A stretch of DNA of 47,055 nt from Thermoclostridium caenicola. Its GTDB lineage: Bacteria; Bacillota; Clostridia; DSM-8532. The notes beneath the pieces were generated by a model that saw only the letters and a program-made list of their open reading frames with translations, was not told where the DNA came from and did no database searches. Shown here piece by piece: positions 11,718 through 46,897 of the stretch. The first letter of the stretch is position 1. Every line of letters begins with the position of its first letter. The stretch lies in NCBI RefSeq assembly GCF_900142095.1, contig NZ_FQZP01000016.1:1-47055 (forward strand), read 5' to 3'. Made by a program: the position numbers and the translations under genes.

Positions 11718-12227
11718 TCACGGGAAAGCCGCCCGCACCGCATCCAGGATACCTTCCAGCAAGGATTTCCGGCCCCCGGATGCTTCTTCGATGTATTGTT
11801 GATCCAGCACCACATTGTAATCATTCTTGGGAACGCTTACCGGAACAATCTGGAACCGATCGGGCTTGTGCATGCCCAGTTCGGTCTCCGCAATCTGCTT
11901 GACCCTGTCCAGATCGATGCTGGTTTCTATTTCAACCTTCAGGAGCCTGTTCTCGTTCCTCAATGTATTGTATTCCTCGTTCATCCTGTTCATGGCGGCA
12001 TTCAGATCCGCCAGCAAGGAGAAGCGGTAGAGCACCACAAAGCACATGGCAACCAGGGCCACAATGCAGAAGCACAGCCTGCCCTTGGGAATATGGGCAT
12101 ACCTCGGTACAGCAACGCGGGATACCCTTACCTGGCGCTCCTTCGGCTGATGCGTTTCATGCCGCTCCGGCCTCTGGGGCAGTTTGGGCGCCACACTGCC
12201 GTAAACATAACCACTTCTGGTTTCCAT
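11718..12227 (-). CDS. ftsL: Cell division protein FtsL-like
   Basis: Bitopic divisome scaffold protein. It has a long basic cytoplasmic part (about residues 1-48), one membrane helix (GRLCFCIVALVAMCFVVLY) and an extracellular coiled coil with a leucine/asparagine heptad pattern (MNRMNEEYNTLRNENRLLKVEIE). This is followed by the DLDRVKQIAETELGM block common to FtsL proteins. The ATG at 12227 is preceded by GGGAGG at nine bases and is preferred over one at 12260. Sequence conservation in this family is low, so the call rests mainly on topology and position between rsmH and the PBP. Confidence 0.85.
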   Translation of the reverse strand: METRSGYVYGSVAPKLPQRPERHETHQPKERQVRVSRVAVPRYAHIPKGRLCFCIVALVAMCFVVLYRFSLLADLNAAMNRMNEEYNTLRNENRLLKVEIETSIDLDRVKQIAETELGMHKPDRFQIVPVSVPKNDYNVVLDQQYIEEASGGRKSLLEGILDAVRAAFP

Positions 12228-12260
12228 GTGATGGTACCTCCCTTCCGGACTCGTTTCCAC

Positions 12261-12746
12261 TTTTGCAGCGCTGTCTGGATTCTTCTGCCGACATTTGAAC
12301 CTTATCTCCGCTGAACGGACCGTAACTCATGGCTGCACGCCTTATCTCAGGCAATTCACAGTTCCCTAAAGAGAACAACGTGGCGTACTTTACCGTAACG
12401 CCACCTCTCGCCGACATCAGAGATGAAGTTCCGGGTCTGCCCTCGGGCAGACCCTGGAGAAGATCATTTCGGATAATCTTTCCAGCTCACTTTTCTTTTG
12501 TGTGTTTCCTTTGTTTCTTACCTGCTTCTCTTTTGTAAACTTTTCCTTTTCTCTTGTGTAAACCTTGTCCACTTTATCTTTGGTAACTGGTTCAAATCTT
12601 TTGTAACTCCGGCTTTCGCCGGCAAATGGTCTTCTTTGGTGGATACAGCCTTTGCGCTTTGGTTTCTTACCGTTCTTTTGTGTCTTTCCGATATTCTTCT
12701 TTTGTAAATTCTGCTTTTATCCTTTGCACCGGCTTAAGTCAATCAA
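12261..12746 (-). other. Unusual 486-bp spacer between rsmH and ftsL with purine-rich degenerate repeat
   Basis: No convincing gene lies here. From 12494 to 12704 the minus (transcript) strand is strongly purine-rich. The 7-mer CAAAAGA or a close variant recurs about ten times, mostly 20-25 bases apart (plus-strand TCTTTTG or TCTTTGG at 12494, 12529, 12577, 12597, 12633, 12674, 12698). One minus frame is open for 71 codons (12518-12733) but has no ATG, and its Lys/Arg richness simply reflects the base composition. A perfect hairpin at 12433-12454 follows. Confidence 0.6.
12433..12454. repeat. Perfect 22-bp palindrome in the rsmH-ftsL spacer
   Basis: Arms GGGTCTGCCC (12433-12442) and GGGCAGACCC (12445-12454) are exact complements with two bases between them. 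The stem is very GC-rich but lacks a T-tract on either side, so it is not a normal terminator. It could be a processing site, a pause hairpin or a protein binding site ahead of ftsL. Confidence 0.6.
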
Positions 12747-13688
12747 TTAAAGCTTTTCCGCAACCCGGAGCTTGGCGCTCCTGGCTCTGGGATTCCTTTC
12801 GAGCTCATCCTCGGACGGCGTCACAGGCTTCCTTGTCAGAATCCTTATCTGCGGCGTCCTGCCGCAGACACATTTGGGAAAATCCCCGGGACAAATACAG
12901 CCTTGCGCCTTGTCCTTGAAAATCTGTTTCACAATCCGGTCTTCCAGGGAGTGGAAGGTGATTACTGCCAGCCGGCCTCCGGGATTCAGAAAATCGATGA
13001 TCTCGCCCAGCGTTTTTTCCAGAACCTCCAGTTCCCTGTTGACCGCTATGCGGATGGCCTGGAAGGTTCTTTTGGCCGGATGCGGTCCTTCCCGTCTCGC
13101 AGCGGCCGGTATGGCCGCCTTGATGATGTCCACCAGTTGACCTGTTGTGGTTATCTTTTGTGTTTCTCTGCTTTTCACAATGAATTCCGCTATCCGCGAA
13201 GCCCACTTCTCCTCTCCGTACTCCCGGATGATTCGGGTCAGTTCCTCGCGGCTCAGGTTGTTGACAACCCATGCGGCATCCATTTCTTCGCTTTTGTTCA
13301 TTCGCATGTCGAGGGGCGCATCCTGCTGGTAGCTGAATCCTCTTTCTCCCTCATCCAGTTGGTAGGAGGAAACGCCCAGATCCATGAGTACCCCGTCGAC
13401 TGCCTTCAGCTTTTGCATCCCGATGACTTCTCTTATTTTTTCAAAGTTCGTATGGTAAAGGACGTATCGTCCTTGGGTTTGCACGTTCTCAAGCTTTTGC
13501 CCGGCCGCCCGTATGGCGTCCTGATCCTGATCGATGCCTATCAGCAGACCTTCCGGCCCCAGTCTTTTCAAAATCTCTGATGAATGCCCGGCTCCGCCCA
13601 GGGTGGCATCCACATAAACGCCGTTTGCGCGGATATTCAGATAATCTATGCATTCATCCAGCATGACGGGTTTGTGTTCAAAGGTCAA
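12747..13688 (-). CDS. rsmH: 16S rRNA m4C1402 methyltransferase RsmH (MraW)
   Basis: S-adenosylmethionine-dependent enzyme that methylates N4 of C1402 in the 16S rRNA P site. The 313-residue protein shows the [13 protein letters not shown] start, the SAM-binding [14 protein letters not shown] block, the [18 protein letters not shown] block and the [12 protein letters not shown] block, all diagnostic. The start appears to be a TTG at 13688 that gives the family-typical N-terminus TFEHKPVM; the ribosome site (AAAGGA) is about 13 bases away, so initiation may be weak. It follows mraZ by 26 bases. Confidence 0.95.
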
Positions 13689-13714: not shown

Positions 13715-14155
13715 TTACGGAAGGTTTATGGGTAGGCTGTCCAGTATCTCGTTGATGTCATAGGAGCTGGTCACTTCTTCATACTTCTGCGGATCCCAGA
13801 TCTCCACCTTGGTGTCGACACCGGCGAAAAGCACTTCCTTTGTCAACCCGGCCCAATCCTTCAGCTCCTGGGGAATCACAAACCGCCCCTGGCTGTCCAG
13901 GCTGCAGGTTACTGCGTTGGCAAAGTAGTGGCGGATGATGGCCCGGTAGTTCTGCCTGCTGGTCTGGAGGGTCTTGATCTTCTCTTCAAACTCCTCCCAG
14001 GCTTCCATGGGATAAAGGTAGAGGTTCTGATCCTCACCGCGGGTAATGATGAACTCAGTACCCAGCTTGTGACGGTAAGCGGCAGGCACGAAAACACGGT
14101 TTTTTGCGTCCAACGTATTCGTGTATTTGCCGTTAAAACCTCCCACCACTTTCAC
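13715..14155 (-). CDS. mraZ: Transcriptional regulator MraZ
   Basis: DNA-binding protein with two tandem AbrB-like MraZ domains; in studied bacteria it binds repeats upstream of its own dcw operon and modulates it. The first domain begins near GKYTNTLDAKNRVFVPA and the second near ANAVTCSLDSQGRFVIP. The frame stays open to a GTG at 14200, but that codon lies inside the promoter at 14179-14207. The GTG at 14155 has GGAG eight bases upstream and gives 146 residues, close to the usual 143, so it is preferred. It is the first gene of the dcw operon. Confidence 0.92.
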   Translation of the reverse strand: MKVVGGFNGKYTNTLDAKNRVFVPAAYRHKLGTEFIITRGEDQNLYLYPMEAWEEFEEKIKTLQTSRQNYRAIIRHYFANAVTCSLDSQGRFVIPQELKDWAGLTKEVLFAGVDTKVEIWDPQKYEEVTSSYDINEILDSLPINLP

Positions 14156-14178
14156 CCACTTTGCTCCACTTACATTGT

Positions 14179-14207
14179 ATTCTACTCCATCTATCGGCAC
14201 CCGTCAA
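14179..14207 (-). promoter_or_regulatory. Sigma-A promoter of the dcw operon
   Basis: On the minus strand TTGACG and TAGAAT are separated by exactly 17 bases. The start site would fall near 14172, leaving a leader of about 17 bases before the mraZ GTG at 14155. I did not find the tandem GTG-type MraZ boxes known from other species in a clear form. Confidence 0.75.
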
Positions 14208-46525: not shown

Positions 46526-46601
46526 TGGTGACCCACCGGAGACTCGAACTCCGGACACCTTGATTAAAAGTCAAGTGCTCTACCGCCTGAGCTAGTGGGT
46601 C
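46526..46601 (-). tRNA. tRNA-Lys (anticodon UUU)
   Basis: 76 bases with an encoded CCA end. The acceptor stem GACCCAC pairs with GTGGGTC; the D-arm has AGCTCAGGCGGTAGAGC, the anticodon loop is CTTTTAA (anticodon TTT) and the T-arm GGAGTTCGAGTCTCC is standard. Confidence 0.95.
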
Positions 46602-46606
46602 ATATC

Positions 46607-46682
46607 TGGCTGGGATGGCAGGACTCGAACCTACGCATGCCAGAGTCAAAGTCTGGTGCCTTACCAACTTGGCTACATCCCA
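46607..46682 (-). tRNA. tRNA-Gln (anticodon UUG)
   Basis: 76 bases with an encoded CCA end. It starts TGGGATG, has AGCCAAGTTGGTAAGGC in the D-arm, the anticodon loop CTTTGAC (anticodon TTG) and the T-arm GTAGGTTCGAGTCCTGC. It lies five bases before tRNA-Lys, so the pair is one transcript. Confidence 0.95.
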
Positions 46683-46704
46683 CCATAAAAAAGACGCAAC
46701 AACA

Positions 46705-46733
46705 ATTATAATCAGTGTTTGCCGCTTTGTCAA
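46705..46733 (-). promoter_or_regulatory. Perfect consensus sigma-A promoter of tRNA-Gln/tRNA-Lys
   Basis: Minus-strand TTGACA, 17 bases, TATAAT: a full match to the consensus, as expected for a strong stable-RNA promoter. The start would lie near 46698. Confidence 0.92.
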
Positions 46734-46747
46734 GCAACGCTTTTGAA

Positions 46748-46820
46748 AAAATAAAAAGTCAGTTTCGAAGTTGGAAACCGGAGCTCGTCTCAGTTTCCAA
46801 CCTCTGTTGACCTGACTTGT
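46748..46820 (-). terminator. Long hairpin terminator of tRNA-His
   Basis: Outer arms AAGTCAG/CTGACTT and inner arms GTTGGAAAC/GTTTCCAAC form a nested hairpin on the minus strand, directly after the tRNA-His CCA end and followed by TTTATTTTTT. The inner loop is 14 bases. It is larger than a usual intrinsic terminator. Confidence 0.75.
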
Positions 46821-46897
46821 TGGGGTGGGTAATGGGGTTCGAACCCATGACCTCCAGGGCCACAACCTGGCACTCTAACCAACTGAGCTATACCCAC
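46821..46897 (-). tRNA. tRNA-His (anticodon GUG)
   Basis: 77 bases with an encoded CCA end. The acceptor stem GTGGGTA pairs with TACCCAC; the discriminator is C and a G precedes the stem at 46898, as needed for histidine identity. The anticodon loop TTGTGGC has GTG; the T-arm is ATGGGTTCGAACCCCAT-like. It has its own promoter and terminator. Confidence 0.95.

Follow-up and report, generated by a model that had tools for sequence, protein, structure and literature searches.

A conserved, strand-specific array of a short RNA motif in the division operon of Clostridia

On its sense strand, the untranslated gap between rsmH and ftsL in the dcw operon of Thermoclostridium caenicola contains the motif UACAAAAGA(U/A)AAA 9-10 times, at intervals of about 22 nt. 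The window analysed here is a 47,055-nt stretch of that genome, and its features are collected in Table 1. The array is a real, conserved and strand-specific RNA motif array of Clostridia, characterised by its motif, spacing, strand, hairpin insertions, conservation and preference for the dcw operon. No description of it was found in the titles or abstract beginnings of the open-licence full-text literature. It is best read as a multi-site platform for a putative RNA-binding factor, for which we infer both the partner and the regulatory effect. A probability of roughly 55% is given to a cis-acting RNA array in the Clostridia dcw operon that would be read by a putative factor dosing the downstream division genes.

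The initial annotation had placed the repeat at 12494-12704, in a gap of 486 bp. The end at 12494 stands, while the start lies at about 12727 instead of 12704. The gap length holds with a GTG start of ftsL at 12260 and becomes 519 nt (12228-12746) with the ATG at 12227; the latter, behind GGAAGGGAGG, is the likely start. Read from 12260, the ftsL frame matched PF04999 above the cut-off and PF04977 (DivIC) just under it. The unit-to-unit spacings are 22, 24, 41, 36, 20, 25, 23, 22 and 13 nt, and excision of the stem-loop at 12609-12622 brings the 36 nt between units 4 and 5 to 22 nt. The repeat was confirmed as real with a motif model trained solely on arrays from other families (30 regions, 284 sites), which avoids circularity. 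This out-of-family model found 9 units in the window gap, compared with a mean of 0.37 and a maximum of 2 in 300 dinucleotide shuffles (0/300 matching), and 1 unit on the opposite strand. With the first motif model, trained partly on the window gap itself, mononucleotide shuffles of the gap (n = 200) gave a mean of 0.4 units and a maximum of 3. A tandem-repeat finder returned 2.5 copies only, because the units are degenerate and unevenly spaced.

Table 1. Positions of the array, its neighbours in the window, and arrays outside the dcw operon in other genomes
Feature	Position	Strand	Remarks
mraZ	13715..14200	-
rsmH (mraW)	12747..13688	-
Untranslated gap, rsmH stop to likely ftsL ATG	12228..12746	-	519 nt
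Array, 10 degenerate units, consensus YACAAAAGAWAAA	12494..12727	-	spacing ~22 nt
Unit 1, GCAAAGGA, degenerate	12720..12727	-	both motif models
Unit 2, ACAAAAGA	12698..12705	-	both motif models
Unit 3, ACAAAAGA	12674..12681	-	first motif model; no call by out-of-family model
Unit 4, ACCAAAGA	12633..12640	-	both motif models
Hairpin CCGGC-GAAA-GCCGG	12609..12622	-	in 36-nt gap between units 4 and 5; E -10.4, shuffle p 0.03
Unit 5, ACAAAAGA	12597..12604	-	both motif models
Unit 6, ACCAAAGA	12577..12584	-	both motif models
Unit 7, ACACAAGA	12552..12559	-	both motif models
Unit 8, ACAAAAGA	12529..12536	-	both motif models
Unit 9, ACAAAGGA	12507..12514	-	both motif models
Unit 10, ACAAAAGA	12494..12501	-	both motif models
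Strong hairpin GGGTCTGCCCGAGGGCAGACCC after array	12433..12454	-	conserved in genus alignment
Second hairpin GTGGCGT..ACGCCAC, then GTTGTTCTCTTT	12380..12404	-	conserved in genus alignment
Likely ftsL ribosome binding site GGAAGGGAGG	12237..12246	-
ftsL (FtsL-type protein)	11718..12227	-	start from ribosome binding site and relatives
Arrays behind 6S RNA	L121:3183-3591, L189:1251-1513 (Rfam), L219:4312-4372 (by eye)		terminator-like hairpin after
Array closely behind Clostridiales-1 sRNA (RF01699)	L114:2577-2999		terminator-like hairpin after
Arrays 3' of ppdK-like gene	L114, L133
Three units between T-box leader and ileS start codon	L086:3975-4463
Arrays before ychF-like, glutamine-synthetase-like and sugar-ABC-like genes	L123, L134, L119
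Arrays of 10-11 units directly behind stop codon of unknown ~360 aa protein	L090:3882-4113, L091:3988-4221		terminator-like hairpin after
Array, context unclear	L120
Six intergenic units, Anaeromicropila populeti	L222:2511-2684		strong hairpin and T-rich tail behind; by eye

That no gene, tRNA or known riboswitch lies in the gap was borne out. Rfam 15 covariance models gave no family match there (at E up to 5, two hits, both scoring well under their gathering thresholds), and no open conserved reading frame was found in the array stretch in the three frames of the window and four congeners. Across the window Rfam returned three tRNAs only; all three genes are encoded on the minus strand, close to the end of the window (46529-46897). 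One consensus scan found no promoter in the gap. A decayed K/R-rich coding region had also been proposed, and one frame of the window does hold 71 open codons. In the first 270 nt, stops numbered 1-5 per frame in the window and 3-7 in each frame of the four congeners (L002-L005), and unit spacings of up to 30 nt were spread evenly over the remainders 0/1/2 modulo 3 (164/171/143). The proposal was thus given up, and the chance that the array is a coding sequence, decayed or real, is negligible.

The same gap was then compared in relatives, as the initial annotation had suggested. rsmH was found in 59 of the 61 genomes taken as own, genus, family, order and class representatives, and the best 30 loci (29 from the family, window included, and one from the order) were used; the family genomes left out are G007 and G030 (rsmH fragments) and G031 (no match). 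Units and spacing were present in 30/30 loci, whose rsmH-ftsL gaps of 259-551 nt held 6-17 units by the first motif model, compared with about 0.5 in shuffles, and 5-17 by the out-of-family model, two of the loci (L002, L003) being near-identical and one (L018) a regular tandem repeat. With the out-of-family model, 0/300 dinucleotide shuffles reached the observed count in each of the 30 gaps. Cores aligned with cores in all four alignments, and cores were more conserved than linkers in the genus alignment (0.874 vs 0.589) and in the three others (0.706 vs 0.491; 0.908 vs 0.702; 0.800 vs 0.523), an excess that is partly built in since the cores are defined by the motif. The 39-bp double-unit repeat that replaces the irregular array in the rsmH-ftsL gap of L018 (G013) is possibly a recent expansion.

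Verified dcw arrays amount to 61 genomes in 17 families, every one running in the same direction as the first dcw genes. They lie between rsmH and ftsL in families f1, f2, f16, f26, f29, f40, f54, f64, f68, f72, f76 and f80, between mraZ and rsmH in f39, f48 and f58, and before mraZ in f15 and f53. A link to the control of ftsL had been suggested at the outset. The array does sit in the dcw operon, but a tie to ftsL specifically has partial support at most; because the position varies, the array is a feature of the operon and not of ftsL as such. Copy number varies widely as well, L079 (G056) and L102 (G192) being very large arrays, for which the model gave 26 and 23 hits, respectively, within the gap. 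The constancy of the core bears on another reading, in which the units are adjacent targets of a trans-acting small RNA with UCUUUUGU-like segments. A fixed core of 8 nt might act as its seed-pairing site; the core is, on the other hand, unchanged across 17 families, and ten or more adjacent targets would be unusual, which makes this reading very improbable.

The taxonomic range was delimited by several scans. Of 391 class genomes, 58 contained a match to a three-unit pattern and 11 to its backward control; some of the matches to the pattern are coding or tandem repeats. The pattern misses carriers, namely the window's own genome and G003, G011, G022, G023 and G024 of the family, and the dcw arrays of G069, G089, G147 and G185. 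Among 40 fetched stretches, chosen mostly for a match to this pattern, 29 had an array beside dcw genes, all on the dcw strand, which added 27 genomes beyond the first 30. When the model was run on the surroundings of rsmH at 60 more loci of the class, four had an array (L256, L260, L276 and L284), of which L276 is the most degenerate. The array is absent from many Clostridia. One locus (G169/L274) with 6 model hits was later found to have 2 units; it was excluded from the carriers and kept among the 59 regions of the spacing analysis. In the 60 class loci, mraZ-rsmH gaps were 6-342 nt where both genes matched, and the rsmH-ftsL distance, measurable in 33, was 17-688 nt; these loci are mostly array-free, so a long gap need not hold an array.

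An independent pattern scan of named genomes gave at least 117 loci, of which at least 32 are dcw arrays, all on the dcw gene strand. These belong to records named Clostridia, Clostridiales, Clostridiaceae, Eubacteriales, Clostridium, Eubacterium and Acetivibrio straminisolvens (the last at L212), and the named-genome set overlaps the class-genome set (contigs L118, L148 and L159, judged by their length, are in both). In a phylum draw of 398 genomes (383 of other classes, the rest being the window's own genome and 14 more of its class), no dispersed array was found with a stricter exact three-unit pattern, which is blind to degenerate arrays, the window's own included. One genome matched, through a simple tandem repeat, and the backward control matched one genome, 8 times. 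Several candidate elements outside this range were rejected. The Bacteroidetes matches L195, L225, L210 and L208 of the named-genome scan are palindromic or simple repeats by eye, L174 is a regular repeat, and the remaining ones were dismissed on spacing and frames only. In Bacteroides luti (L195:6414-6465, L225:1216-1267), ACAAAAGA recurs at 22-nt spacing within palindromic repeats, by eye a different element. For a phage origin, 38 stretches from a viral scan each had an open frame running through or a regular period, and none was a dispersed untranslated array.

As a measure of the preference for the dcw operon, exact unit pairs at a distance of 20-25 nt were counted in 32 genomes, some with and some without the array. 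The total was 76 pairs in 20 genomes, and 69 of the 76 lay in the dcw array. The other 7 (G000:C6, G170:C24, two in G318, G106:C1 and the non-dcw arrays of G186 and G269) are within chance, since 15 pairs in 7 genomes turned up with the backward control. The carriers G089, G069, G147 and G240 have no exact pair at all. A genome-wide coding-like repeat of the kind in Xanthomonadaceae was rejected, given how few exact pairs lie outside the dcw array. In the window's own genome the only other exact pair (G000:C6:39787-39814, L041 about 1501-1545) lies in the leader of a CYTH-like frame, named by eye, with a third, partial unit upstream.

Thirteen non-dcw array loci were inspected, with genes named by eye from their translations (Table 1). 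Rfam, run on eleven of them (L219 and L222 excepted), confirmed 6S RNA at two loci, a T-box at one and Clostridiales-1 in L114. The 6S-linked arrays are in Lachnospiraceae-type records, one of them Eubacterium plexicaudatum ASF492, and L090 and L091 come from two related genomes. The array of Anaeromicropila populeti apparently resembles a free-standing RNA. These loci indicate that the element is one of untranslated RNA, most often placed in the division operon. The ties of the motif reach beyond division genes.

Further evidence at the RNA level came from the spacing. Across 501 gaps in 59 regions, which are related so that the gaps are not independent, the spacing distribution had a peak at 22-25 nt and another group of values at 15-19 nt. 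The 98 gaps of 30-70 nt had a mean linker folding of -3.76 compared with -2.01 in mononucleotide shuffles, and 41 of them held strong hairpins compared with 18.3 in shuffles (0/300 reaching). Excision of the hairpin restored 17-25 nt in 27/41 (7.7 shuffled; 0/300 reaching), and the stem began 3-7 nt after the core in 27/41 (5.8 shuffled; 0/300 reaching); as shares of strong hairpins, these are 0.66 vs 0.42 for excision and 0.66 vs 0.32 for the stem start. The spacing was not restored by 14/41 strong hairpins, and 57/98 long gaps had none, some of which may hide units too degenerate for the model. Stem sequences at equivalent places differ between species, and the distant family f72 has the same layout with other stems (L097, by eye). 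The restoration of spacing by hairpin excision points to single-stranded RNA. Linker folding was about equal on the sense and antisense strands (-3.76 vs -3.36) and thus does not separate them; the strand is given by the orientation of the arrays and by those in non-coding transcripts. Among the ideas first put forward, that of a leader bound by an RNA-binding protein is therefore favoured, with motif and spacing conserved in 17 families, strand specificity and tolerance of hairpins.

These data also bear on a DNA-level element, with iteron-like or transcription-factor sites about two helical turns apart. Plasmid iterons are direct repeats of about 20-22 bp that act as duplex DNA sites; the array has direct repeats of similar length, near 22 bp, and one main locus per genome. 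Unlike iterons, it tolerates hairpins and follows the transcript strand. Its spacing peaks at 22-25 and 15-19 nt instead of 21 nt, and where hairpins are inserted, the usual distance returns only when they are looped out. All dcw arrays are on the gene strand, others stand behind stop codons and 6S RNA, and the position within the operon shifts. The spacing histogram and the hairpin insertions showed no fixed duplex-DNA period of an iteron or tandem repeat, L018 (G013) being the exception. A DNA-level element is accordingly regarded as quite unlikely.

Hairpins also follow the array. Most rsmH-ftsL arrays have, by eye, a G+C-rich hairpin between the array and the start codon, and none is present there in f39. 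The window hairpins at 12380-12454 are conserved in the genus but do not resemble those of other genera. Of the 59 regions, 10 had a match to a TTTRTTGT-type tail, and terminator-like hairpins were seen by eye in relatives. In the window gap a terminator scan called no intrinsic terminator (stem plus U-run), both hairpins included. Attenuation may thus operate in some lineages and is not common to all.

Several known systems were compared with the array. The TRAP sites of the trp leader are GAG/UAG triplets 2-3 nt apart. Like the array, that leader has many short single-stranded repeats in untranslated RNA, spaced along the RNA and often near a terminator-like hairpin. In contrast, the array has an 8-nt core every ~22 nt, lies in another operon and has no obligatory terminator, and its core and spacing do not correspond to (G/U)AG triplets 2-3 nt apart. 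The CsrA motif GGA sits in hairpin loops of the sponge RNAs CsrB/CsrC and RsmY/Z, which share with the array ten or more copies of one motif among hairpins within a few hundred nt. The array differs in that its conserved core ACAAAAGA lies outside hairpins, not as GGA in their loops, and in that it is mostly embedded in an operon. By analogy, the array would work like a multi-site protein-binding leader (TRAP, CsrB), and the defining features of either that were tested are absent from it. FtsO of Escherichia coli is a small RNA from ftsI mRNA, a base-pairing sponge cut from coding sequence. It has in common with the array, whose function would be of this kind, a regulatory RNA role within the dcw operon; unlike the array, it is part of a coding sequence and has no repeats.

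If the array were a sponge, it would titrate an RNA-binding protein as CsrB/RsmY do, and would be freed from the operon transcript either through processing or because transcription ends at the hairpin that follows it. Many copies interspersed with hairpins, the frequent strong end hairpin (by eye), the linkage of some arrays to 6S RNA or an sRNA, and the intergenic array of Anaeromicropila populeti with its hairpin and T-rich tail would fit such a role. Against it, exact pairs outside the dcw array are 7/76, so that mRNA targets are not visible at such stringency, family f39 has no hairpin before the start codon, and the terminator scan was negative in the window gap. A sponge is therefore considered hardly likely.

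Among the candidate partners for the platform, Hfq was matched in 43/80 genomes, with no match in 12/30 verified carriers, and SpoVG in 64/80, with no match in 5/30; both were rejected as required partners on these grounds. KH domains of the KhpA/B type were present in 80/80 genomes (G318, G148 and G240 with a single match each) and, being universal, are not discriminating. In Streptococcus pneumoniae, where KhpA/KhpB (EloR/Jag) act on division mRNA, we know of no repeat array, and binding of the array by these proteins is putative. A second-hand report has EloR/KhpA of S. pneumoniae binding 5' untranslated regions, that of the ftsA transcript among them (PMC6403258), and a KH-type partner is suggested for this reason. 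In Bacillus subtilis KhpA likewise reportedly binds RNA, and in C. difficile it is reported to do so as a complex with KhpB (PMC12456014). By this analogy KhpA/KhpB are possible partners and the most plausible known candidates for the array-binding factor.

Rho was found in 70/80 genomes, among them 30/30 carriers, and in the larger draw in 319/391 class genomes and 50/50 verified carriers. The nominal Fisher p of 2e-5 used 51 carriers (50 on recount) and ignores kinship; by family, p is about 0.05-0.1 by a rough hand estimate. Rho is compatible with the array, but not established. The association would suit an RNA coat, that is, a protein shielding long untranslated RNA from Rho-dependent termination or RNases, with division-gene regulation secondary. 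So would the arrays in untranslated RNA behind 6S RNA, Clostridiales-1 sRNA and a T-box. However, the array genomes are clustered by family, which leaves the p value above, and the dcw array makes up most of the untranslated stretch and would shield little but itself. An RNA coat is unlikely.

Under the preferred reading of a platform for a dosing factor, the operon transcript would contain a long stretch, rich in A and for the most part unstructured, in which (U/C)ACAAAAGA(U/A)AAA recurs about 5 to 27 times, ~22 nt apart. Hairpins inserted between the units would be looped out, with the spacing kept along the single strand. A sequence-specific RNA-binding factor would then occupy several units side by side, and the bound factor could set the output of the downstream division genes through translation, stability or hairpin read-through. 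A more specific and tentative version, which we hold at clearly less than even odds, is that a dedicated protein beads ~22 nt apart on the division-operon RNA (in some species also on a free-standing array or on RNA that follows 6S, an sRNA or a T-box), reads the 8-nt core, loops out hairpins and ties its own abundance to how much division or sporulation-septum machinery is made.

Few bacterial gene clusters are conserved as widely as the dcw operon. FtsL, FtsQ and FtsB of Clostridioides difficile are reported to be dispensable for growth and important for spore formation (PMC10693644). An array kept in 17 families while its position moves offers a ready bait for the factor that would read it, and its sequence can be edited in tractable species, which may show how division or sporulation genes are dosed.
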